64,000 bases of DNA from Pseudomonadales bacterium (GTDB lineage Bacteria; Pseudomonadota; Gammaproteobacteria; Pseudomonadales; Azotimanducaceae), in the NCBI GenBank assembly GCA_019090615.1, contig JAHRVQ010000033.1, positions 1 to 64,000 of the forward strand, given 5' to 3'. The position numbers and the translations under genes are program-made. Positions 38,045 to 62,541 of the stretch are shown here, piece by piece (position 1 is the first letter of the stretch; the number at the start of each line of letters is the position of its first letter). The notes under the pieces were generated by a model. It searched no databases. It was not told the DNA's origin and saw nothing but the letters and a program-made list of their open reading frames with translations.

Positions 38045-38072
38045 CAAGTAACAAGTAACAAGTAACAAGTAA
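38045..38072. repeat. AAGTAAC heptamer tandem repeat
   Basis: About four units of AAGTAAC, 35 bp upstream of the TpsB start codon. Copy-number variation here could alter promoter spacing. Confidence 0.75.
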
Positions 38073-38106
38073 AATATTACAACGCTATAACCCTTTTATA
38101 TAATTA

Positions 38107-39750
38107 ATGCCGACACTTCCTTTGCTAAAAAAAATACTTACCCTATGCTGCTTTGGGTTGCTTGCGAACTTAGCTTGCGCACAACAAACTCGACCAGTGC
38201 TACCTGTAGTACTACCTGAAAAATTACCCGCCATCTCCTTACTAGAACTGCGTGGTACAAAAGCCGTTATGGCGGGTCAACTGATAATCATCAAACAGAT
38301 TATCATCACCGGTAATCACGTCCTGGCCCCCAGTTTGCTGGCGGCGATTACAGCGGCCTATACCCATCGCGAAATCGGCTACAATGACCTGCTTAATTTA
38401 CGCGACGAAGTAACTCTCGCCTATGTTAATCGGGGCTTTGTTACCTCTGGGGCCATCGTGCCTGACCAGGATGTTGCCGATGGGGTACTGGAAATTCACA
38501 TTCAGGAAGGTCACCTTGGTGCAATCAATATATCAGCAGACAGGTTTCGCCCTGAATATATTCAATCAAGACTGTCATTAAATGCAGGCGACGTGGTCAA
38601 TGTTAAGCTGCTGGAAACAAAGATTCGTCAGCTACAACAAGATTTTCGCATCGACAAGGTGGCCTTAACCTTAGTGCCAACCGAGCAAGGTAATACCGAT
38701 GTAAAGGTGCAAATTGCAGAAGCCGCAGCTTTTTCTCTTCAGGCTGGTTTCGATAATACAACCTCTCCCGCAGTCGGTTCGGATACCCTACGCCTCAACC
38801 TGCAGCACGCCAACCTGTTGGGTTATGGCGATGTTATTTCGTTTCAGTCAGTACATACCCCAGGCCTGGCAGCCCAGGAACTATATTATACCTTGCCAGT
38901 AACGGCTCATCATGGGCAATTGTTAATCGAGGCTCGTAACAGCGACAGTGACATTGTTGACGACCTGTTTTCCGGCCTGGATATCGAAGGCGCCTCTGAG
39001 TCTTATAGTCTGGGCTTCAAACAACCGTTTCAGCTAGCCAATGAAGATCAATTGATTCTGACCCTTAAAGGAGAATTTAAACGCGCAGCCTCTTCATTAT
39101 TAGGCCAGGGTTTCTCCTTTTCGCCAGGTGCAGATGATGGCGAGACACGGGTTGCGGCATTGCGATTTTCTGCTGGCTTAAGCAGGCGACGGCTAAACTA
39201 CATCTACTCATTGCATTCCACCTTATCTGTTGGTACAAAGCTACTCGATGCGACAGCGCATTCTGGCGACACACCCGATAGCCAGTTCGTCAACTGGCTA
39301 GTTCAGGCGCAGTGGGCAAGGCGTTTCACTTCAACTCAGATCGAACTTCGCAGCCGGGTTGATCTACAGGTAACAGATTCCTCTCTGCTCGGCCTTGAAC
39401 AATTCGTTCTAGGTGGAAGCACATCAGTACGCGGCTACCGAGAAAATTTACTGGCTCGGGATGCAGGCATCACAGCCTCATTTGAATTACGTTATCCACT
39501 GTATACAACAAATACCTTAAGCCTCGATGGTGCAGTATTTCTGGATGCAGGTTATGGCCGAAATGTGCATCGGGCACCGGCAGCAGAAACCTTGACATCG
39601 GTTGGCATCGGATTCCATATACAAATTTATCAATATCTCAATCTCTCTATCGAATGGGCTGAAGCACTGCAGGATGTGGGGGTGATCGGCGAGCACAATC
39701 GCCAGGACGATGGTGTTCATTTTGGCCTGAATTTTGGGTGGGCGTTATGA
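38107..39750 (+). CDS. TpsB-type outer-membrane transporter (ShlB/FhaC family)
   Basis: A 547-residue two-partner-secretion transporter. Signal peptide residues about 1-25 (CLANLACAQQ-like end). POTRA domains lie at about 60-200 (IIIKQIIITGNHVLAPSLLA, LEIHIQEGHLGAINISADRF, LNAGDVVNVKLLETKIRQLQ). The 16-strand barrel ends with LGGSTSVRGYRENLLARDAG, the conserved VRGY tetrad of the L6 loop near residue 440. It should export the TpsA protein encoded next, whose ATG overlaps this stop codon (ATGA). Confidence 0.9.
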   Translation: MPTLPLLKKILTLCCFGLLANLACAQQTRPVLPVVLPEKLPAISLLELRGTKAVMAGQLIIIKQIIITGNHVLAPSLLAAITAAYTHREIGYNDLLNLRDEVTLAYVNRGFVTSGAIVPDQDVADGVLEIHIQEGHLGAINISADRFRPEYIQSRLSLNAGDVVNVKLLETKIRQLQQDFRIDKVALTLVPTEQGNTDVKVQIAEAAAFSLQAGFDNTTSPAVGSDTLRLNLQHANLLGYGDVISFQSVHTPGLAAQELYYTLPVTAHHGQLLIEARNSDSDIVDDLFSGLDIEGASESYSLGFKQPFQLANEDQLILTLKGEFKRAASSLLGQGFSFSPGADDGETRVAALRFSAGLSRRRLNYIYSLHSTLSVGTKLLDATAHSGDTPDSQFVNWLVQAQWARRFTSTQIELRSRVDLQVTDSSLLGLEQFVLGGSTSVRGYRENLLARDAGITASFELRYPLYTTNTLSLDGAVFLDAGYGRNVHRAPAAETLTSVGIGFHIQIYQYLNLSIEWAEALQDVGVIGEHNRQDDGVHFGLNFGWAL

Positions 39751-42700
39751 ATCGTTTAATTTTACTGCTGTGTTGCTTTTGCATGGCAACTTTGCGGGCA
39801 GATCCGGTACGTGATGGTAGTATTGGTCCAACAACGACCATCCAGCCGACTGGGCCAGAATTTTTGATCGACGCCTCCATGGGTGCCCGTCGGGGCCCAG
39901 CATTGTTTCATAGTTTTAGCGAATTCAGTCTCGATAGAGACCAGACAGCAACATTTACCGGCGATACCTCTGTCGATTTTGTTATTTCCCGCGTATCGAG
40001 CAATACCCCCTCTCTGATCAACGGCAAACTAGTCTCTGCAATCCCAGGCGCGAGTTTTTTCCTGCTCAACCCAAACGGCATTTTGATATCGAAAGATGCT
40101 CAGCTAGATGTGGATGGCAGCGTCTTTTTAAGCAGCGCTGACTATCTGGCATTTGATAATGGTGAGATATTCACATCAGATTTCGGTAGCTTGCCGACCA
40201 TCGACATTTTGACACCAACTTCGTTTGGCTTTCTGGATGCTGAAATCGGTAATATTAGCCTCAATGGCACTATACTTGAACTGCCAGACAGCACCTCACT
40301 TTCGTTGGTAGGCGGTAATATAAATATCGAATCTGCATCGATAAGCCTTACAAGCGGCGAGGTTCAACTTGTGGCTGTAGCTTCTGCAATAGAAGTCCCT
40401 ACACTTGCAACAGCGCCACCTACACTGGGCCAGCCAGGCATAGGCTCGACTGGTCAACTGGCAGATATTGTCCTGTTAGATTCGACCATCGATGTAAGCG
40501 GTGATGCTGCAGGTACCGTTCGTATTCAGGCAGGCCGACTGGATATCCAGGATAGCAATATAAGTTCCGTTGGTATCAACGCTACAACACTGGCACCTGT
40601 CGCCATCAATATTATTGCCATCGATTCAATCAAGCTGGCGGGTGAAACAGAAATTTCAGCTTCAACCGAAGGCAATGCAACTGGCGGCGACATAGTTATT
40701 ATGACGGACCAATTTAAACTGCTGGATGATGCAGAAATTATCAGTGACACAGCTGGGGCTGGTGCCGCCGGATCAGTTGCCATTGTTGCAGGTGAGGTAC
40801 TCATAGCCGGTGATGCAGAAATCGCTAGCGATGTCGAGACTGGCGCCACAGGCAATGGTGGTGCAGTCACCATTACAGCCGCCAATATCCTGTTACAGGG
40901 CGCACCCGAGATTAGCACCGATACTGACCCGATGAGTTCCGGCCAGGGTGGCAACATCATATTGACCGCCGCCGATGCGATTGTGCTGGATATAGACTTT
41001 GAGGCCGGCGAAGAAGCAGGCGTCTTATCCAATACAGAAGGCAGTGGCCCTGCAGGCTCAATTCAAATTCAGACACCGCTCCTGTCTATCCGCGGCGGAA
41101 CAATTAACGCCATGAGCGATGGCGCAAGTTTAGGCGGCAGCATCATTGTTGAGGCCAACGATGTGTTGCTAACAGACCATGCCAGTATCAGCGTTGAGAG
41201 CTCGGGGACTGGCGATGCAGGCGACATTCTAATCACCGGCAAAGGAAGCGTAAAACTAGCACCGACCACCAGTATTAGCGCCAAAGCAACAATCGCTGAT
41301 GGCGGCAATTTATTGCTCACAGGTTATTCGCAAATCATCTCCCAGTTTGCCGATGTGACCGCGAATGTAGGTGCTGGTATCGGCGGCAATATTAATTTAT
41401 CTGCAACCCAGGTTGTTGCTGATAATGCAGCGATTATTGCCCAGGCTGGTGCCGGACAAGGCGGCGCAATCAATATAGATGGCGATTTTTTCTTCTCTGA
41501 TAGCAGCCTTGTAAGCGCCTCTGCGGGACCGGCAGGCATTTCTGGAACCGTAGCAATTAACGCCCCTGAAGTAGATTTAAGCGCCAGCCTTGAAGCGCTG
41601 CCGACGGCATACCGAGACCCCACTAATTTGTTTCGTCAGGCCTGTGCGGCAAGAACCGGCGTTGATGCCACAAGCAGTTTTGTGATTACTGAAAAAACCT
41701 TAGTGCCATCTACCGTTGAGGGCATACCGCTTGCCCGAGTCGAGCAGATAATATCTGCCGACCTTGTAATAGCGCGCCATGCGGCTCAGACCAAACCAGC
41801 CCAACAGGCACTTGATCTATTATTACTCGCACAGACAACGCTGCAATATGCTGAACCGAACACCAACACGATCTACGGTCTTGTTCATGTAGCGCGTAGC
41901 TATACACTTGTTGCTAAACGACTCGAAACATCACCGCGGCATCCATTATTGCTGAATGCCGCTAACCTGCTGCAGCGCGCCCGTGGTTTAAGCAAAGCAA
42001 TCGACAATCTACCTATTCAGTCGTATGTATTGGGTAACCTGGCAGACCTATATGCCGCTAACCAGCAACTGGATGAAGCATTATATCTGGCTCGTAGCGC
42101 AAGCAATTTGGCACAAGAGGCTGAAACACCAGCCAGCGAGTATCGTTGGTTGGCATTGCAAGGACAAATCCTTACCGCACAGCGGCGACCTACTGAGGCA
42201 ATCGATGCCTACCGTCGCTCAATTAGTGTGATTGAGAATTCCAGCCAGTCAGCACTGGTTAGCGTTGATGTCAGTGGCGACTACTTCTATCAGCAAATAG
42301 TGCCTGTTTATCATGCGCTGGTTGCATTGTTATTAGACCAGGCAAAGTCGGCCAGTTCAGCCGCAGCACAGACGATGTTTCATGAAGCAAGACAAGTGAT
42401 GGAGTTATTTAAGGCCGCTGAACTACGTGATTATTACCAGGATGAGTGCGTTGCAGAGAGTCAGTCTAGCATAATGAATCTTGACGAGGTTGCGAGCGGA
42501 GTGGCAGTAATCTATCCCATTGTACTGGCCAACCAGCTTGAACTGCTGGTTGGCATTGATGGCCGACTACAGCACTACAGTGTCAATGTAACCGCTAAAG
42601 CAATTGCTGACCAGGTTGCCGAGTTACGTGAAATACTAGAAAACCTCGAAGACGATTACCTTGATATCAGCCAGGCGTTGTATGATTGGGTTGTTAGACC

Positions 42701-43472
42701 CTATGCCAGCGCACTTACTGCAGTGGATACCCTGGTCTTCGTTAATGATGGACCATTACGCGGTTTATCGGTTGCAGCATTACACGACGGCGATGAATTT
42801 TTAGTGCAGCGCTTTGCTTTGGCCGTGGCACCAGGGCTCAATATGGTGGACCCAAAACCATTGCCTGAAGCACCGCCGGTAGTATTTCTAGCAGGCCTCA
42901 GCCAGGCGGTTGACGGCTTCTCCGCATTGCCTGGTGTGCCAGGAGAATTAAATGCAGTGGCATCCGCCATGTCAGGTGAAGTAGTACTTAATTCTTCTTT
43001 TGCGCTGGATCAACTACGATTGGGGCTGGTTGAGAATAACCCATCCATGGTGCATCTGGCGACCCATGCAAGTTTCGGCAATGATTCTAGCGCCAGTTTT
43101 ATCCTCACCTGGGATGGTCAACTTAGCGTTAATAAACTGTCTGAATACGTACTTGCCAATCGCTTTCAGCAACGCCCACTTGACCTGTTAGTATTAAGTG
43201 CCTGTGAAACTGCAGTGGGAGATTCACGTTCCGCACTGGGTCTGGCAGGCATTGCCGTGCGCGCTGGAGCGAAAAGCGCTATGGGCTCTCTGTGGACTAT
43301 TTCAGATGAAGCCACTGCTTTGTTAATGGGTGAATTTTATTACAATTTGATACATCGCTCACTATCGAGATCAGAATCGTTACGCCAGGCTCAATTGACA
43401 CTGCTCAACGACCCTGCTTTCAACCACCCCTTTTTCTGGTCGCCATTTTTGTTAATCAATAATTGGTTATAG
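39747..43472 (+). CDS. TpsA-type secreted protein with C-terminal CHAT domain
   Basis: A 1241-residue exoprotein. Signal peptide residues 1-18. TPS/haemagglutination-activity domain at about 20-250: PTGPEFLIDASMGARRGPAL, LFHSFSEFSL, SRVSSNTPSLINGKL and FLLNPNGILISKDAQLDVDG. A Gly/Ala-rich β-helix extends to about 620. TPR-like helices occupy about 640-870 (LADLYAANQQLDEALYLARS). A CHAT (caspase-like) domain spans about 930-1240 with catalytic His in MVHLATHASFGND (about 1104) and Cys in LSACETAVGD (about 1151). Export by the overlapping TpsB is likely. The protein would be a surface-delivered cysteine protease. Confidence 0.9.
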   Translation: MNRLILLLCCFCMATLRADPVRDGSIGPTTTIQPTGPEFLIDASMGARRGPALFHSFSEFSLDRDQTATFTGDTSVDFVISRVSSNTPSLINGKLVSAIPGASFFLLNPNGILISKDAQLDVDGSVFLSSADYLAFDNGEIFTSDFGSLPTIDILTPTSFGFLDAEIGNISLNGTILELPDSTSLSLVGGNINIESASISLTSGEVQLVAVASAIEVPTLATAPPTLGQPGIGSTGQLADIVLLDSTIDVSGDAAGTVRIQAGRLDIQDSNISSVGINATTLAPVAINIIAIDSIKLAGETEISASTEGNATGGDIVIMTDQFKLLDDAEIISDTAGAGAAGSVAIVAGEVLIAGDAEIASDVETGATGNGGAVTITAANILLQGAPEISTDTDPMSSGQGGNIILTAADAIVLDIDFEAGEEAGVLSNTEGSGPAGSIQIQTPLLSIRGGTINAMSDGASLGGSIIVEANDVLLTDHASISVESSGTGDAGDILITGKGSVKLAPTTSISAKATIADGGNLLLTGYSQIISQFADVTANVGAGIGGNINLSATQVVADNAAIIAQAGAGQGGAINIDGDFFFSDSSLVSASAGPAGISGTVAINAPEVDLSASLEALPTAYRDPTNLFRQACAARTGVDATSSFVITEKTLVPSTVEGIPLARVEQIISADLVIARHAAQTKPAQQALDLLLLAQTTLQYAEPNTNTIYGLVHVARSYTLVAKRLETSPRHPLLLNAANLLQRARGLSKAIDNLPIQSYVLGNLADLYAANQQLDEALYLARSASNLAQEAETPASEYRWLALQGQILTAQRRPTEAIDAYRRSISVIENSSQSALVSVDVSGDYFYQQIVPVYHALVALLLDQAKSASSAAAQTMFHEARQVMELFKAAELRDYYQDECVAESQSSIMNLDEVASGVAVIYPIVLANQLELLVGIDGRLQHYSVNVTAKAIADQVAELREILENLEDDYLDISQALYDWVVRPYASALTAVDTLVFVNDGPLRGLSVAALHDGDEFLVQRFALAVAPGLNMVDPKPLPEAPPVVFLAGLSQAVDGFSALPGVPGELNAVASAMSGEVVLNSSFALDQLRLGLVENNPSMVHLATHASFGNDSSASFILTWDGQLSVNKLSEYVLANRFQQRPLDLLVLSACETAVGDSRSALGLAGIAVRAGAKSAMGSLWTISDEATALLMGEFYYNLIHRSLSRSESLRQAQLTLLNDPAFNHPFFWSPFLLINNWL

Positions 43473-43620: not shown

Positions 43621-45087
43621 TTATTTGTTATCCATCTGCTGTGTTGCTGATTTTTTTTGCGCTAGCAGTGCAAAAGCTACGGTGGAATAGTCCGCCATTC
43701 GGCAAAAACTTTGAAACTCATTTTCGGTGAATGATTCTTCACCTTGTTTACGCGCCCCATAGACCAGTCCCACTGGGGTTTGCTTCAGCAATATTGGATG
43801 TAATAAGAACTCCTTAGCAGCCAATTTTCGCAGCAATGGGTCAAGATCCTGAGGTTTATATTTTTCACCTTGCCTGGCTGTATGCCACATAGGCTGACCC
43901 ACCGTAAAAAGTTGTTTGACCAGTTTACCCGTGGATTGCTCGCCTTTTAAAATATTCATAATATCAATCTGAGCATCCGCTGTTGTCGCATCCCATTGAT
44001 TACCAATAACCCGCTTAGCTTGCAACCGATAGGTTTTAGCATTAACCAGTGCAAAAACCACCTGGTCCATCTTCAGTGCATGATGAATGCCCTCTAAAAC
44101 TGCCATCAAGGTCACATTAAGATCAGTGAATTGGCTCAGCATATGGGTCAAGCGGCCAAGAATTTCTAACTCATCCTGAAATTTTGACAATTTTAGTGCC
44201 TGTTCCTTATCCGCCATATCGTTGGCATTAAGTTCATTGGGCGGCAATAGCGAGTGTATTTGCGGAAAGCCAAAAGACTTCAGCCCCTCGGCAGCCACAC
44301 GGGCGCTGGCGTAAACATGTTTTTTAGCATCCACAACAGGCACCGATAAATAAACGCCAGCGCGTTTAATCTGCTTCTCGACCGTATCAGATAACCAACC
44401 ACGAGAAATGCCATTCGCAATACCAGAACCAATAGCAATCGCCTGTTCTTGTTCCTGCTTACGACTGGGCATCATTGACTTCCTCAACATCTCACTGAGA
44501 TTCCATTCTGAGATTAGGCCGCCAGTCAAATCATTCAGACTAAAACCAAGCACCCGTCGCTCGGCTTGTTCGCCTGAGTCATTTTCGCGATAAGCATCGA
44601 GCAGCTCATTACCTTTGCCAAAAGGAAAACACCAGAAGATTATCGATCCCAGCCGGTTTAACAGGGCCGCAATATAGATCGCTTCAAGCGCCTCAGGGTC
44701 AGATTTTTTTGCCAGTCGTTGAGCCTGCACGGCCGCGTGATAGGCTGAAACCATTTCCATTTGCAGCTGCTGTTGCGGCTCTGCATCCAGCACTGTATCT
44801 ATCATGGCAATGGTCAGGGCAATATTCCGCACCTGTTCAAAACCAAGCACGACCGTAGCATAACTTACGGTTTTAATCGGTTTGCCGGTTGGATTGTAAT
44901 GCGCGCTATTGGCAATCCTGAGGATTCGCGCAGTCATGGCGGTATCGTGCAGAATGATATTCGACAAGTCTTCGGCAGAGCTGTCATTTTCCCGAGAGAC
45001 ATAAGCCAAAGAACGTGCGGTATGGGCAAATGCCGGAAGTTGCTGTTCAGATAATTTGTCGATCCAGATTTGAAGTTTATCAATCAT
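43621..45087 (-). CDS. HDOD domain protein with GAF-like C-terminus
   Basis: A 488-residue signalling protein. The HDOD domain lies at about 12-215: LSEQQLPAFAHTARSLAYVS, IILHDTAMTARILRIANSAH (the D-P/D-x-L-x-x-R-I-L-R-I-A-N-S signature) and VSYATVVLGFEQVRNIALTI, but no catalytic HD pair. Residues about 300-475 form a GAF-like sensory domain (LGRLTHMLSQFTDLNVTLMA, VLEGIHHALKMDQVVFALVN, EFQSFCRMADYSTVAFALLA). HDOD proteins act in second-messenger and motility or stress networks. The gene is convergent with the CHAT gene. No DNA-binding domain is seen. Confidence 0.88.
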   Translation of the reverse strand: MIDKLQIWIDKLSEQQLPAFAHTARSLAYVSRENDSSAEDLSNIILHDTAMTARILRIANSAHYNPTGKPIKTVSYATVVLGFEQVRNIALTIAMIDTVLDAEPQQQLQMEMVSAYHAAVQAQRLAKKSDPEALEAIYIAALLNRLGSIIFWCFPFGKGNELLDAYRENDSGEQAERRVLGFSLNDLTGGLISEWNLSEMLRKSMMPSRKQEQEQAIAIGSGIANGISRGWLSDTVEKQIKRAGVYLSVPVVDAKKHVYASARVAAEGLKSFGFPQIHSLLPPNELNANDMADKEQALKLSKFQDELEILGRLTHMLSQFTDLNVTLMAVLEGIHHALKMDQVVFALVNAKTYRLQAKRVIGNQWDATTADAQIDIMNILKGEQSTGKLVKQLFTVGQPMWHTARQGEKYKPQDLDPLLRKLAAKEFLLHPILLKQTPVGLVYGARKQGEESFTENEFQSFCRMADYSTVAFALLAQKKSATQQMDNK

Positions 45088-56646: not shown

Positions 56647-59600
56647 GTGTTAATCAGGGTATTACGGTTCAAACCAGTTAGTTTACAGTTTTTCTTCATT
56701 ACCCTGCGCTGCAATCTCTTGCTGACCAGAGTATTGCCCGGCCTAATCCTCTTATTGACTAATTTCTCGGTCACGGCTGCTAGCTGCGGATTGATTGACA
56801 GTCGTTATGCCCTATATTCAAATTCTAGCCTTAGCCTGGCTAGCAATATAAAAATCAATAGTAAAAACATAGTCGACGGCACAACCGTAGGCACTGCTGG
56901 CCTTAACCCAGACGGAACCGTCACTACCAGCAGCATCAACATTCCAGGCCTGGACCCAGCAAGTTTTCCTTCAAACACTGCGACGACTGACCTGGATGAA
57001 GCTAATTCACCGCTCAATGCCAACACGGCAGTATTTTATGATCAGGTTAACATTGGCACTCGCGAAGAATTTCGTTTCACCGGTAGCGGCCCCTTTCATA
57101 TCAACACCTTAACCGTTGAAGATGATGCTGATGTATATTTTTCTGCTGGCACCTATTATATCAACACACTTATTTTGCGGGATACAACCCATCTACGCCT
57201 CGATGCTGGTCCGGTCAACTTACATATCGGCAATAGCCTCGATTTAAACGACCGCAAGATCCATATTAACGAACATGACGGTGGCGAACCTGAAGACCTA
57301 AGGATTTATCTGCATACCAATGCCAGCATTACCAATAGCGGCAGTAACGATGACAACAAAATAAAAGCCATTATTATCGGGGTAAATAATGGTCCGATTA
57401 AATTTGGCCCAAAATTATCTTTCGACGGCGTTATCCTAAGTGACAACGACATCACAATAGATACAAAATCCCGTTTCGACTTAAACTCATCAATGCAATC
57501 AGTGATTGGTGCAATTTCCACCTGTGATACTGCTGGCTCGGTTGTCGCTAGTATTTCAAGCATCAGCGTTGTCCCAGGTGCCAATGCAATAGTTTCTATT
57601 ACCCTGTCTGGCACATCAGCTTCGGATACTGTATTCAGTTATACAACCCAGGATGGTACCGCGACCGCGGGCAGTGATTACACCGCCAAAACAGGATCAA
57701 TAACAATTAGTGCCGGTAATACCAGCGCCCAAATCACGATTAACACCAGTGCCACTGCACAGACTGGCGAGGCATTCAGCATCAATTTGTCCAGTAGCGA
57801 TGTGAGCCTTAATAACACCTCAGCCACGGCAACTTTCAGTGCGCCAGCAGGTGCCTGCAGCTTAATCGATAGCCGTTACGGGCTTTATTCCACTGTCGGG
57901 CTTAACCTCGGTTCTGGCATCACTATCAACAACAATGGGGTCGCTAGTGGAAACGCTATGGGCACTTCAGGTTTAGACCCAAATGGATCAATAATTACCA
58001 GCAGTATTAGCGTCCCAGGTTTTGACCCAGTAAATTTTCCCGCCAATAACTCAACCACAAATCTGGACGATACAAATTCTCCTCTGACGGATAACAGCGC
58101 AGTATTTTATGATCTAGTGCGAGTCAACGATAACAAAGAATTGCAGTTTACCGGGTCCGGCCCGTTCCATATCAACACATTAATTGTTGAGGATGACGCT
58201 GATGTGTATTTTTCTGCAGGTATCTATTATATCGACACATTAATTCTCCGCGATACTACCCATATCCGCCTGAATAACGGACCTGTGCAGCTACATATCG
58301 GCAGCGAGTTAGACTTAGACGATCGCAAAATTCATATCAATGAACATGATGGTGGCGAAGCCGATGACCTGCGAATTTATCTCCATGAAAATGCCACCGT
58401 AACCGATAGCGGCAGCAACGATGACAATAAAATAAAGGCCATTTTTATCGGTAACAACAACGGCCCGATTCAATTCGGCAGCCAATTAAAATTTGAAGGT
58501 TTAATTATCAGCGAAAATACCATCACGGTTGGCAACGATGCCGATCTTGAGCTGGATAGTACCTTAAAGACCGCCATTGACGCAGTCACCACCTGTGACG
58601 CTGCAGGTACCTTAAGCTTGAGCATTTCCAGCGTTAGTATGATGCCAGGAAACGATGCAACATTTTCACTGGCACTATCTGCAACCACCGGCACGGATAT
58701 AGTCATTAATTACGCCACCCAGGATGGCACCGCAACAGCGGGCAGTGATTACACCAGTGACAGTGGTACGGTGACAATTGCCGCAGGCAGCCTAACAACC
58801 TTAATCAGTATCAACACCAGCAGTACAGCAACAGTTGGCGAAAATTTCAGCATTAATCTAACCAGCAACGATGTCAGCCTGAGTGTTGCAACAGCCTTAG
58901 CATCTTTCACCGGTGCCGCCGGTGCCTGCGGCTTGTTAAATAGCACCTATGGTCTCTATTCGACCACTAGCCTTGCGCTGGGCACCAACACTACAATTAA
59001 CACGATCGCCGTCACCAGTGGTACAACTTCTGGTTCAGTTGGCCTCGACGTCAGTGCTGCCATTACCGCAACAAGTATTAGTATACCGGGCCTTGATCCC
59101 AGCGGCTTTCCCACAAATAGCTCAACCACAGATATCGATGAAACCAGCTCGCCGATTGACGGCACAACCGAAAAGTTTTTTGATGAGGTAGTTGTCAACG
59201 ACAATCAAGTGTTGACTTTCAACGGCAACGGCCCCTTCCATATTAAGACCCTAACCATTGAAGATGACGCAGATGTTTATTTATCCGCTGGCACCTACTA
59301 CATCGACACATTAATTTTACGCGACACCACCCACATTCGCTTAAGTAACGCGCCAGTCGCGCTGCATATTGGCACCGAGCTGAACCTGGCAGATCAGAAA
59401 ATTCATATCAATGAACACGAAGCCGGCAGCCCGGAAAACCTCTTAATCTATCTGCATGCCAATGCTGTGATTACAGGTGGCGCGAGCAATACAGAGGCCA
59501 AAATCCGTGCAGTTATTGTTGGCGTAGACAATGGCGTAATTGATTTTGGTGACAAGCTAAAATTTTCCGGCATTATTCTTAGCGAAAACGACTTAACATT

Positions 59601-62541
59601 CGGCAGCGATGCAGCATTCACCCTGAACACCGCAAATCAAAATGCCATCAACAATCGTTCCACCTGTCTAATCACTGATTTCAGCACATTTTGTGGCGCT
59701 GTTTTTACTGCCGGCCTGCAAATCTCTAACAGCGATGGAACAGTCGAGTTCGAAGCAAGTGGCCAACTACTTGCCAACCCAAGCAGTGTGCTTATTACCC
59801 CGTCAATCAACAAAAATCACAGTAGTAGCTGCGATACGACTCAATGTACAGCCGGTGAAAACCAGTCTGAGGCGCCAATTTTCCCGACCTTTTTGACCTC
59901 CAGCACCACTACTGACCTGGATATTTCCAGCGACCAGACCATTGGTAATAGCGGTGTAAACGCTTATCGAACAGTGACAGTGCGCAGTAATCAAAGTTTA
60001 GATTTTTCAACCGCTCAAAGCAGTTATATAATCGACACACTAACCGTAGAAAATAGCGGCACAGTCAATTTTGTCGCTGGCGATTATTATATCGCTGACC
60101 TTAAAACTGACAATAGCGATTTAACGCTGAATGTCGTTGGCCCAGGTACAGTGCGGATTTATTCCACCGCTGATATTAAGTTTAAAAACAATGCCATCGT
60201 TAATTCTCCTTCAGCTGCCAATGCTGGCACAGCTTCTGTATTATATGTGCATTCACAAAACAATCTCAAAATCGAATCTGGCGCTACGATCACCGGTTTT
60301 TTAGTCGCCCAAAACGATTTTGAGGCAAAGGGTTCATCTACTGTATTCGGCGCAGTATCTGCCGGTGAAAAAATAAAACTAAAAGATACTGCCACCCTGA
60401 CCTATATCAACAACGAAATTACCAGTACCGATTTCGGTGCCTCTTGCAGTCAAATTGATCCAGCCAATAGCCTTAACTATTTCACCTTAAACCATGATGG
60501 CAATGGAATTAATTGCGTATCTGAAACACTGGTAATAACCGCCCGTAAATCCAGCGGTGATATTCAGGATAGCTACGCAGAAACGGTAACCCTTGACACC
60601 CAATCAAGCAAAGGCAGCTGGAGTCTGGTAGCTGGCAACGGTACCTTTTTAGATGCCACCAATAACGATGGCCTGGCCAGTTATAGCTATAGCGACCTGG
60701 ATGACGGTATAGCCAGTTTTGGCCTCAACTACTCTGAAGGTGCCGCGAGCCTGGACGTCGACATTTTTCAGACTTCAAATTCAACCCTGCGGGACGATGA
60801 TTCAGAAGCTACTTTAACCTTTAACCCGAGCGGTTTCAGTTTTACTCAATCAGTCCTGACCAACCCGCCACCAACACCGATTAACGATCCTTTAATCACT
60901 CAAACAGCAGGCAGTGAATTTAATTTACATATCACGGCCTTCGGTCAAACTGCCGATGACCCTGACTGCGGTATTATTGAAGCTTATACCTCGGATCAGA
61001 GCATTGCCTTCTGGGCTGATTACGAGAATCCAACTACCGGCACCTTAACACCCACAATTAACAGCACGATTGTTGCAACTAACCAGTCATCGGCTGCCGG
61101 ACAGACTATTAACTTTTCCAACGGTCAGGCAATGGTGCTGGTCAAGTACAAAGATGTGGGCCAGATTCAACTGCATGGCCAGGATTTAGCCCAGACAGGC
61201 ATAACAGGTGCCACCAATATTTTTCTTGTTAAACCCTCGGACCTGATCATCACTGAAATAAAAACAGCGCTGGGTAGCAGTAATCCGGGTGCAACATCCG
61301 CAACCGGCAACGGTTTTGTTGCTGCTGGCGAGGCCTTCACCGTTGTCGTTGAAGCCCGCGACGCAGAGAATGCAGTAACGCCGAATTTTGGCCGAGAACT
61401 GGTGCCAGAGGGTATTGAGATTACGTCAACGGCGCTAGTAATACCGGCCGGCGGTATCAACGGCTCTGCCAATGATGGCAAAATTGGCAATAGTAGCGCT
61501 TTTTCAGCTACAGCAATCGCCGGTGTCTTTGCAGGCAATAATTTTAGCTTTGATGAGTACGGCATTATCACCCTGCAGGCAAGTATTGCCGATGATGACT
61601 ACCTCGGCGGCGGTGAAATATCAGGCAGCGTATCTGGCAATGTTGGGCGATTTTACCCCGCCAGTTTTACCTTGGATTCAAGCAGCGTTGTCGCCGCCTG
61701 TAATAACTTCACCTATATGGATCAGCCAGAAATCATGATCAGCTATAACCTACAGGCGCTCGATACACTGGGCGCTCAACTGAGCAATTATGATGCCGGT
61801 TTATTGGGTAGCAGCGCTGTCGCCATACCAGTTTTTCACATTGAAAACGACAACCAGGGCGTTGATCTAAGTAGCCGACTTGCAGTGACATCTAGCACCT
61901 GGGTTAACGGCAGTTATCAACTGACTAACATCAATCAACAATTTAATCGCGCCACCAGCCCAGACGGCCCTTTCACATCGCTTCAGCTGGGTGTCTCCAT
62001 CACTGATAACCTGGACACGCTGAAAATTACCAATGCCAACATGAACCCCAGCACCAGCAATGATTGTACAGCTATCTCTGACTGCGATACCAGAGCCTTA
62101 TCCGGTACGACCAACCTGCATTACGGCCGAATGGTATTAAGCAATGCTTTTGGCCCAGAAACCGAACCACTCGCCATACCACTAAGCACGCAATATTTTA
62201 CTGAAAATGGCAATTTTGTGGAGAATACAAATGACGATTGTAGCGCCTATATTAATAGCGCTAGCACACTGAGCAATTATCAGGATGGTTTGGGTAGCCT
62301 AAGTATTATATCACCCACCAGCTTCGAATTTGTTGTTAACGGGTCTGCTACGCCAGGCAACAGAATAACCCTGTCAGCACCTGGGGCGAATAATACCGGC
62401 AGTGTTGACATAAGCTACAGCGTACCCGCATGGCTTAAATATAATTGGCAGGGCAGTGGCGATGAAGATCCCCAAGCGACCGCTTCCTATGGCCATTTTC
62501 GCGGTCATGACAAGGTCATCTATTGGCGCGAAGTCTTCTAG
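56647..62541 (+). CDS. MshQ-like surface protein with internal repeats
   Basis: A 1964-residue exported protein starting with GTG. A hydrophobic segment (about 28-45) serves as signal. Three repeat units start with a Cys at residues 47, 404 and 761. The first two are exactly 357 residues long. Each has a polymer-forming β-helix part (FTGSGPFHINTLTVEDDADV, RKIHINEHDGGEPEDLRIYL), and the first two end in a Calx-β domain (FSYTTQDGTATAGSDYTAKT). A fourth, diverged copy of the β-helix part follows at about 1010-1260. The last 700 residues match the DUF6701/MshQ C-terminus, ending with a characteristic YNWQGSGDEDPQATASYGHF. MshQ proteins are linked to type IV (MSHA) pili. No other pilus gene is here. 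Confidence 0.85.
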   Translation: MLIRVLRFKPVSLQFFFITLRCNLLLTRVLPGLILLLTNFSVTAASCGLIDSRYALYSNSSLSLASNIKINSKNIVDGTTVGTAGLNPDGTVTTSSINIPGLDPASFPSNTATTDLDEANSPLNANTAVFYDQVNIGTREEFRFTGSGPFHINTLTVEDDADVYFSAGTYYINTLILRDTTHLRLDAGPVNLHIGNSLDLNDRKIHINEHDGGEPEDLRIYLHTNASITNSGSNDDNKIKAIIIGVNNGPIKFGPKLSFDGVILSDNDITIDTKSRFDLNSSMQSVIGAISTCDTAGSVVASISSISVVPGANAIVSITLSGTSASDTVFSYTTQDGTATAGSDYTAKTGSITISAGNTSAQITINTSATAQTGEAFSINLSSSDVSLNNTSATATFSAPAGACSLIDSRYGLYSTVGLNLGSGITINNNGVASGNAMGTSGLDPNGSIITSSISVPGFDPVNFPANNSTTNLDDTNSPLTDNSAVFYDLVRVNDNKELQFTGSGPFHINTLIVEDDADVYFSAGIYYIDTLILRDTTHIRLNNGPVQLHIGSELDLDDRKIHINEHDGGEADDLRIYLHENATVTDSGSNDDNKIKAIFIGNNNGPIQFGSQLKFEGLIISENTITVGNDADLELDSTLKTAIDAVTTCDAAGTLSLSISSVSMMPGNDATFSLALSATTGTDIVINYATQDGTATAGSDYTSDSGTVTIAAGSLTTLISINTSSTATVGENFSINLTSNDVSLSVATALASFTGAAGACGLLNSTYGLYSTTSLALGTNTTINTIAVTSGTTSGSVGLDVSAAITATSISIPGLDPSGFPTNSSTTDIDETSSPIDGTTEKFFDEVVVNDNQVLTFNGNGPFHIKTLTIEDDADVYLSAGTYYIDTLILRDTTHIRLSNAPVALHIGTELNLADQKIHINEHEAGSPENLLIYLHANAVITGGASNTEAKIRAVIVGVDNGVIDFGDKLKFSGIILSENDLTFGSDAAFTLNTANQNAINNRSTCLITDFSTFCGAVFTAGLQISNSDGTVEFEASGQLLANPSSVLITPSINKNHSSSCDTTQCTAGENQSEAPIFPTFLTSSTTTDLDISSDQTIGNSGVNAYRTVTVRSNQSLDFSTAQSSYIIDTLTVENSGTVNFVAGDYYIADLKTDNSDLTLNVVGPGTVRIYSTADIKFKNNAIVNSPSAANAGTASVLYVHSQNNLKIESGATITGFLVAQNDFEAKGSSTVFGAVSAGEKIKLKDTATLTYINNEITSTDFGASCSQIDPANSLNYFTLNHDGNGINCVSETLVITARKSSGDIQDSYAETVTLDTQSSKGSWSLVAGNGTFLDATNNDGLASYSYSDLDDGIASFGLNYSEGAASLDVDIFQTSNSTLRDDDSEATLTFNPSGFSFTQSVLTNPPPTPINDPLITQTAGSEFNLHITAFGQTADDPDCGIIEAYTSDQSIAFWADYENPTTGTLTPTINSTIVATNQSSAAGQTINFSNGQAMVLVKYKDVGQIQLHGQDLAQTGITGATNIFLVKPSDLIITEIKTALGSSNPGATSATGNGFVAAGEAFTVVVEARDAENAVTPNFGRELVPEGIEITSTALVIPAGGINGSANDGKIGNSSAFSATAIAGVFAGNNFSFDEYGIITLQASIADDDYLGGGEISGSVSGNVGRFYPASFTLDSSSVVAACNNFTYMDQPEIMISYNLQALDTLGAQLSNYDAGLLGSSAVAIPVFHIENDNQGVDLSSRLAVTSSTWVNGSYQLTNINQQFNRATSPDGPFTSLQLGVSITDNLDTLKITNANMNPSTSNDCTAISDCDTRALSGTTNLHYGRMVLSNAFGPETEPLAIPLSTQYFTENGNFVENTNDDCSAYINSASTLSNYQDGLGSLSIISPTSFEFVVNGSATPGNRITLSAPGANNTGSVDISYSVPAWLKYNWQGSGDEDPQATASYGHFRGHDKVIYWREVF
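56785..57855 (+). repeat. MshQ-like repeat unit 1 (357 codons)
   Basis: It runs from the Cys codon TGC at 56785 to the base before the equivalent Cys codon at 57856, 1071 bp. The end of the unit is a Calx-β domain. Confidence 0.75.
57856..58926 (+). repeat. MshQ-like repeat unit 2 (357 codons)
   Basis: 1071 bp, exactly the length of unit 1. Segments such as FTGSGPFHINTLIVEDDADV and GSNDDNKIKAIFIGNNNG are nearly identical to unit 1. Confidence 0.75.
58927..59690 (+). repeat. MshQ-like repeat unit 3, without Calx-β part
   Basis: It begins CGLLNSTYGLYSTTSLALG and retains DDADVYLSAGTYYIDTLILR and RDTTHIRLSNAPVALHIGTE. It stops after the β-helix segment, so the Calx-β part is missing. Confidence 0.65.

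Follow-up and report, generated by a model that had tools for sequence, protein, structure and literature searches.

A predicted TPR-CHAT protease accompanies two-partner secretion proteins with a C-terminal cysteine motif and is fused to its partner in a small clade

Introduction

In Pseudomonas aeruginosa, the two-partner secretion (TPS) adhesin CdrA, of the CdrA/CdrB pair, has a cysteine-bearing tail in the periplasm, and the periplasmic protease LapG cuts this tail and sheds the adhesin (PMC4694147; PMC5422565; PMC11898600). The C-terminus of Haemophilus influenzae HMW1 (HMW1/HMW1B) is likewise held in the periplasm, through a disulphide loop, and a folded, disulphide-bearing C-terminal fusion stopped the export of filamentous haemagglutinin (FHA) (PMC3297439). 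In Bordetella FhaB/FhaC-SphB1, the C-terminal region of the TpsA protein is processed during secretion (PMC5422565). Outside two-partner secretion, the Csx29/Craspase protein of type III-E CRISPR systems is a TPR-CHAT defence protease in an RNA-guided complex that cuts Csx30 (PMC9729208). Here, we describe a TPS locus in which a predicted protease of the CHAT family is fused to TpsA. It lies in a 64,000-nucleotide stretch of DNA (hereafter, the window) from a Pseudomonadales bacterium of the Azotimanducaceae (assembly GCA_019090615.1, contig JAHRVQ010000033.1, positions 1 to 64,000).

Results and Discussion

The window locus encodes TpsB and a TpsA-CHAT fusion

The locus comprises tpsB and, overlapping it by the four nucleotides ATGA, the gene for the fusion protein (Table 1). 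The overlap had been pointed out in an earlier, sequence-only reading of the window, and the DNA (...GCGTTATGAATCG...) confirms it: the tpsB stop codon TGA occupies 39748-39750, and the ATG of tpsA-CHAT begins at 39747, an arrangement that suggests translational coupling. The N-terminus of TpsB is a hydrophobic signal segment; a POTRA_2 domain (residues 61-135, Pfam E 2.2e-17) and a ShlB/FhaC-like barrel (residues 195-503, E 3.1e-29) follow. Together with the TPS domain and beta-helix of the partner, these are the domains that define a type Vb two-partner secretion pair.

The same reading had proposed that the partner consists of a TPS domain, a beta-helix, TPR-like helices and a C-terminal CHAT domain with His and Cys in place, and both Pfam and the predicted models agree with this architecture. 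The AlphaFold2 model of residues 1-641 (mean pLDDT, a per-residue confidence score, 85.4) has regular strands up to about residue 605 and folds as a beta-helix that matches the secretion domains of HMW1, EtpA, HxuA and FHA; the best solved match is HMW1 (2odl, Z 28.7, root-mean-square deviation (rmsd) 2.7 over 352). The model of residues 560-1241 (mean pLDDT 80.7) matches the TPR-CHAT protein of Craspase (7y84_C, Z 31.5, rmsd 8.6 over 486), separase and gingipain R (4ief_D, Z 17.8; 1cvr, Z 17.2). Its CHAT core superposes on the protease domain of separase (5fby_A, Z 24.8, rmsd 3.3 over 308), which is a eukaryotic cohesin protease. A TPR_12 match at residues 761-828 (E 1.9e-5) falls under the Pfam curated cut-off. 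The agreement of the window domains and folds with the TPS and CHAT families is far beyond chance. Conservation of the catalytic residues across homologues had been named in advance as a point on which the earlier reading could fail; the columns of His1107 and Cys1153 are invariant in 40/40 aligned rows. The window CHAT domain thus appears, from sequence and model, to be a CHAT peptidase fold with a His/Cys dyad and is a putative protease, with Ala following the catalytic His in place of the usual Gly. It shares the TPR-CHAT fold and the dyad with Craspase, from which it differs in being predicted to be exported and in having no CRISPR link: a cas7-11 partner gene was not found among the 18 window neighbours, a subset of the open reading frames (ORFs), that were scanned with Pfam.

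CHAT is mostly a separate gene in TPS cassettes

Query P0002 matched 30 of 97 relatives, many only through other CHAT types. In the family loci that we fetched, CHAT, TpsB and TpsA are encoded by separate, adjoining genes in varying order (Table 1; L046 and L047 are truncated at contig ends), and the fused form is confined to the window and L040. TPS domains lie within 10 kb of 12/61 CHAT rows in the relatives; the remaining rows are other CHAT types, save for fragments and contig-end cases. The window genome (G000) itself has a second locus, L035 (G000:C86:1681-11472), with an unfused CHAT-TpsB-TpsA cassette, whose TpsA (a 1846-aa frame) bears the same cysteine tail motif, described below, as the window protein.

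A contig scan with the single sequence P0002 recovered no relative, and a scan with an alignment of 12 CHATs did. We surveyed the best 80 loci from the latter scan, out of a larger number, with the CHAT sequence alone as query and a stretch of up to 10 kb fetched on each side. By profiles built in this analysis, TpsA and/or TpsB are present in 67/80 loci, and both in 39/80. Of 61 loci in which a CHAT ORF was called together with another TPS or TpsB ORF, 42 have the nearest such ORF on the same strand, at most 200 bp away. The separate CHAT gene is the predominant form, and fusions are a minority. By their taxonomic labels, the host genomes come from nine phyla: Pseudomonadota, Nitrospirota, Nitrospinota, Myxococcota, Thermodesulfobacteriota, Planctomycetota, Verrucomicrobiota, Methylomirabilota and Cyanobacteriota (one locus, L115, appears identical to L038). 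One carrier of an unfused CHAT, Desulfobacter latus (L097), is in culture. An apparent TpsB-CHAT fusion, L104, was rejected, as an ambiguous residue (X) at the TpsB end is followed by a signal peptide. We found no description of CHAT in two-partner secretion in the literature searched, in which coverage of subscription journals was poor. The CHAT-TPS cassette is real, widely conserved and, within that literature, undescribed; its parts are known, and the combination and the job that we propose for it are new. Tandem TpsA genes, two or three per cassette, occur in L085, L089, L091, L107, L112 and L126.

The CHAT protein is probably periplasmic

A signal-peptide-like start is present in 66/79 separate CHATs versus 129/364 of the remaining ORFs that reach 250 aa in these loci, as judged by a simple rule in place of SignalP, with start codons picked mechanically and with some truly exported proteins among the comparison ORFs. 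In a few separate CHATs (for example, L095 and L111) we read the signal end as lipobox-like. No separate CHAT carries a TPS domain. By these sequence features, CHAT very likely leaves the cytoplasm and most likely resides in the periplasm; delivery through TpsB is unlikely, since the separate CHATs carry a signal peptide and lack the TPS domain. The earlier suggestion that the protease faces outside therefore does not fit the separate CHATs, which have these features and stand beside tpsA and tpsB.

The same observations bear on the idea that the stalk carries CHAT through TpsB to act outside the cell, on neighbours, prey or proteins of the matrix, which we consider quite unlikely. The fold matches do include a secreted protease, gingipain R, and C-terminal effector domains on TpsA stalks do exist, in contact-dependent inhibition (CDI) toxins (PMC5422565). 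Against such a role stand the separate CHATs without a TPS domain, the arrest of FHA export by a folded C-terminal fusion (PMC3297439) and the conservation of the CHAT end, which is unlike polymorphic toxin tips. Nor does the locus have the makings of a CdiA/CdiI pair, in which an immunity gene lies directly downstream: the next ORF 3' of tpsA-CHAT (43621-45087) encodes an HDOD protein and runs in the opposite direction. The pretoxin/VENN-type module that precedes the variable toxin tip of CdiA is absent from the window Pfam matches up to E 0.1, and the tip is the conserved CHAT domain. A contact-dependent or prey-targeting role, as first proposed, thus gained no support, since CHAT mostly stands alone as a protein that has a signal peptide but lacks a TPS domain, and no immunity-like gene follows tpsA-CHAT. 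A survey of relatives for neighbouring immunity or gasdermin-like genes had been suggested; at the window, no gasdermin gene and no convincing defence family stands beside tpsA-CHAT among the 18 neighbours scanned with Pfam or the few given to PADLOC, which gave only a weak BovA match (E 0.0028).

Two further families recur in the surveyed loci: DUF928 in 40/80 and CHASE2 in 22/80 (either in 46/80). A literature search on DUF928 listed a paper on WD40 proteins. The presence of the two families raises a different possibility, that TPR-CHAT, with CHASE2 and DUF928, senses envelope stress or phage at the TpsA/TpsB machinery of the surface and sets off a response, in which case cutting TpsA would not be its chief role. 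CHASE2 also adjoins the CHATs of L160 and L163; Craspase shows a TPR-CHAT protein acting in defence (PMC9729208); and phage-resistant isolates of Nostoc 7120 were changed in a TPS-domain protein, with a double mutant also changed in the CHAT gene all2170 (PMC10811720), two proteins that may or may not belong to the system described here. We nonetheless judge this rather unlikely. DUF928 was not found in a search of the contigs of the window genome and occurs in 1/12 family genomes searched (G015, adjoining the family's other fusion). CHASE2 occurs in 11/12 and, in the window genome, is unlinked, on another contig than the window. The weak BovA match is all that PADLOC offers, and a sensor leaves both the TpsA cysteine motif and the fusion to TpsA unexplained. 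We keep a prey or defence role as a rival because the CHAT fold acts in CRISPR defence and because of the Nostoc phage-resistance changes.

A cysteine motif at the end of TpsA tracks CHAT across genomes

Complete cassette TpsAs share a tail, in which the last beta-helix turn is followed by C-A-x-R-like and S-S-F/L elements, often by G-R-x-G-L-P and P, and then by a second Cys near the end. This tail, with its motif Cys and near-terminal Cys, resembles the "cysteine hook" that CdrA and HMW1 have in the periplasm. A motif profile matches 63/64 complete TpsAs of the loci, the set from which it was built, and 57/64 of that same set have a Cys within the last 9 residues, versus 2.1 expected from composition. 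We relied on these two counts in place of a loose regular expression, which matches 64/64.

The motif tracks CHAT across genomes. It is present in 14/97 relatives' genomes; among the 32 relatives with a TPS domain, it occurs in 11/11 with a cassette CHAT and in 0/21 without (Fisher 7.8e-9). The three motif genomes without a TPS match are G044, whose cassette CHAT lies on a short contig, G023, with a CHAT remnant, and G001, with a weak match. In an evenly sampled set of 321 genomes of the class, CHAT (threshold E 1e-40) was found in 22, the motif in 15 and both in 12, so that the motif accompanies 12/22 genomes with CHAT versus 3/299 without (Fisher 1.3e-13). In a phylum sample of 398 genomes, which overlaps the class sample in G000 and in some members of the same order, CHAT was found in 18, the motif in 11 and both in 9 (9/18 versus 2/380; Fisher 4.1e-12). 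These genome-wide counts replaced an early control that was too weak to carry weight: its 20 stretches yielded only 10 TpsAs away from CHAT, 7 of them end-cut, with no credible motif match.

Six stretches with CHAT and no motif match were fetched. In G744, CHAT is followed by a TpsA that has a terminal Cys and whose motif has diverged, and the profile therefore misses some TpsAs. A CHASE2 protein adjoins CHAT in G303, G327 and G586, and G248 and G394 have neither a divergent-motif TpsA nor CHASE2 beside CHAT; some such CHATs may therefore have other partners. G127 has nine places that match the motif and three that match CHAT, all on different contigs, so that CHAT could act in trans on several TpsAs. 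G554 (L154-L156) has three motif-bearing TpsAs, with neither a CHAT of the clade nor TpsB in the fetched stretches. A candidate fusion in the reverse order, CHAT-motif, in G023 was rejected: a contig-end ORF (L166:7985-8908) joins a CHAT part to a TpsA tail and is probably a decayed or deletion remnant or a misassembly.

Fused CHATs form one clade and keep the motif cysteine

In a quick tree of 93 CHATs (support by SH-aLRT, a likelihood-ratio branch test, only; long branches flagged), the seven fused CHATs, namely those of the window, L040, L054, L057, L084, L056 and L087, form one group (SH-aLRT 91). The fusions of L056 and L087 are cut on their N-terminal side. The hosts belong to the window's family, Myxococcota and Nitrospinota, and the simplest reading is a single fusion event that spread across phyla. 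TPS-CHAT fusions had been expected in cyanobacteria; we saw none among the nine cyanobacterial loci of the best 80 (L108, L113, L118, L122, L126, L128, L129, L131 and L133), all of which are unfused.

The motif Cys ahead of TPR-CHAT is kept in 7/7 fusions, and Ala follows the catalytic His in 6/7. After the signal region, the only cysteines of the window, L040, L057 and L084 proteins are those of the motif, the linker and the catalytic site; the window fusion thus retains the motif Cys alone of the TpsA C-terminal pair. The linker cysteine, Cys901, is an invariant column in 40 rows, and beyond residue 70, 53/74 separate CHATs contain only two Cys. These features could also suit a plug or chaperone that binds the tail without cutting it and keeps TpsA in the outer membrane: TPR arrays bind peptides, Cys901 could pair with the TpsA tail, and the fusion loses the terminal Cys and retains CHAT. 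We think this very improbable, as the invariant His and Cys would be needless for a plug.

A CHAT protease may cut or release the TpsA tail

Our results lead us to propose that an envelope CHAT protease cuts or releases the TpsA tail, much as LapG acts on CdrA, and that in the window it is fused to its substrate in cis; we give this about an even chance of being right. The two-partner secretion locus would have gained a third part, a separase/caspase-like CHAT protease acting within the cell envelope. TpsA would be exported by Sec and then threaded N-to-C through TpsB, its beta-helix folding outside, while its C-terminal tail, marked by the cysteine motif, would remain in the periplasm as an anchor. 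There TPR-CHAT would meet the tail and, once activated, perhaps by a CHASE2 signal, cut or otherwise free it, thereby maturing or shedding the surface fibre. Most carriers would export CHAT on its own; where it is fused, as in the window and its small clade, it would act in cis, and its folded bulk could double as a stopper. The likeness of the predicted fold to those of active Cys proteases (Craspase TPR-CHAT, separase and gingipain R) is consistent with this proposal.

Several observations weigh against it. We located no cleavage site in TpsA, and the CHAT has no known activity; Ala next to the catalytic His might lower activity. The Fisher values overstate independence and should be read loosely, since the genomes share ancestry and the motif profile was derived from TpsAs linked to CHAT. 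In G001 the motif match is weak and no cassette CHAT accompanies it; the motif also occurs without CHAT at E 1e-40 in G554, G123 and G194 (73% complete) and, weakly, in G118 and G534; and CHAT occurs without a motif match in 10/22 genomes of the class sample and 9/18 of the phylum sample. In 13/80 best loci, neither TpsA nor TpsB was found in the fetched stretch; some of these are contig ends, but L064, L070, L109 and L127 are 18-22 kb long. The ORF caller gave no CHAT ORF in L098, L124 and L130. Because the fused CHATs form one clade, the fusion counts as one event and not as repeated evidence, and because the fused proteins have no terminal Cys, they lack a complete two-Cys hook. Finally, the window genome has a LapG gene (G000:C50), and CHAT is therefore not a simple LapG replacement. 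The notion that LapG and CHAT exclude each other was rejected, PF06035 being present in 24/58 relatives, including G000.

The proposed system would differ from each described one. The CdrA/CdrB protease LapG belongs to an unrelated family (PF06035) and is encoded outside the TPS operon, whereas TPR-CHAT is in the cassette or fused; the window locus is not a LapG system, because its protease is of another family and LapG lies elsewhere in the genome. SphB1 is a subtilisin autotransporter with its gene elsewhere. The third partner of HMW1/HMW1B, HMW1C, is reportedly a glycosyltransferase, and that system has no CHAT. A broader reading is possible, which we hold more tentatively: that of three-partner secretion in at least nine phyla, in which an operon-encoded TPR-CHAT reads the TpsA cysteine tag, cuts or transfers it and so controls fibre display or release, perhaps with mixed-disulphide capture by the non-catalytic Cys and with CHASE2 and DUF928 in accessory sensing. 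CHAT would then play, with a caspase fold, the part that LapG or the PorU sortase plays elsewhere. Such a role would place in the envelope a separase/Craspase-type protease family that is usually discussed as cytoplasmic, would name a candidate substrate tag, the TpsA cysteine motif, that is directly testable, and would give DUF928, a family of unknown function, a working context.

Table 1. Features of the tpsB/tpsA-CHAT locus (window positions) and gene orders of unfused family loci.
Feature	Position or loci	Strand	Basis
tpsB, outer-membrane TpsB transporter, 547 aa	38107..39750	+	POTRA_2 and ShlB/FhaC barrel matches
tpsA-CHAT fusion, 1241 aa, from ATG 39747	39747..43472	+	ORF read and Pfam
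ATGA overlap, tpsB stop / tpsA-CHAT start	39747..39750	+	read directly
Putative Sec-type signal peptide, MNRLILLLCCFCMATLRA	39747..39800	+	read by eye; cleavage point inferred
TPS secretion domain, residues 29-217	39831..40397	+	Pfam E 4.9e-28 and fold match
Beta-helix stalk, residues about 218-610	40398..41576	+	AlphaFold2 model m37c4a50588a7
TpsA C-terminal cysteine-motif region, residues 593-662, ...LFRQACAARTGVDATSSFV...	41523..41732	+	motif profile E 1e-16
Match to motif alignment A2	41532-41726		E 5.4e-21
Motif cysteine Cys633	41643..41645	+	motif match
TPR-like helical array, residues about 662-897	41730..42437	+	model m56cd629ca6c9, helices at model positions 103-338; weak TPR Pfam matches
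Conserved non-catalytic (linker) cysteine Cys901	42447..42449	+	invariant in alignment A3, 40 rows
CHAT domain, residues 974-1237	42666..43457	+	Pfam PF12770 E 7.7e-51 and fold match
Catalytic His1107 (HLATHA), then Ala	43065..43067	+	alignment, 40 rows
Catalytic Cys1153 (LSACETA)	43203..43205	+	alignment, 40 rows
CHAT-B-A order	L035 (G000, window genome), L036, L037, L038, L039, L041, L042		
CHAT-A-B order	L045		
B-OmpA-CHAT-A order	L044		
CHAT-x-A-B order	L043		

Other features of the window and of the family loci

GC content at third codon positions is 0.447 for tpsB and 0.448 for tpsA-CHAT, similar to that of neighbour genes, and there is thus no sign of recent foreign DNA. The CHAT nearest in identity to that of the window (48%) is from a metagenome-assembled genome of Myxococcota. 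Upstream of tpsB, short AAGTAAC copies stand in tandem at 38045-38075. Farther along the window, 56647-62541 encodes a putative large surface protein of 1964 aa that matches DUF6701, Calx-beta and DUF7305.

Between the CHAT and TpsA genes of L043, a 1363-aa protein with one FG-GAP repeat match is encoded (L043:9432-13520). Another CHAT family, whose proteins are about 1300 aa long and begin with a signal-like segment, is common in the window's family; L050 (G000:C82:59845-60867, minus strand) represents it in the window genome. CHATs of this type lie away from TPS genes, and about 1 kb from a CHASE2 gene in G013 (C138) and G044 (C345).

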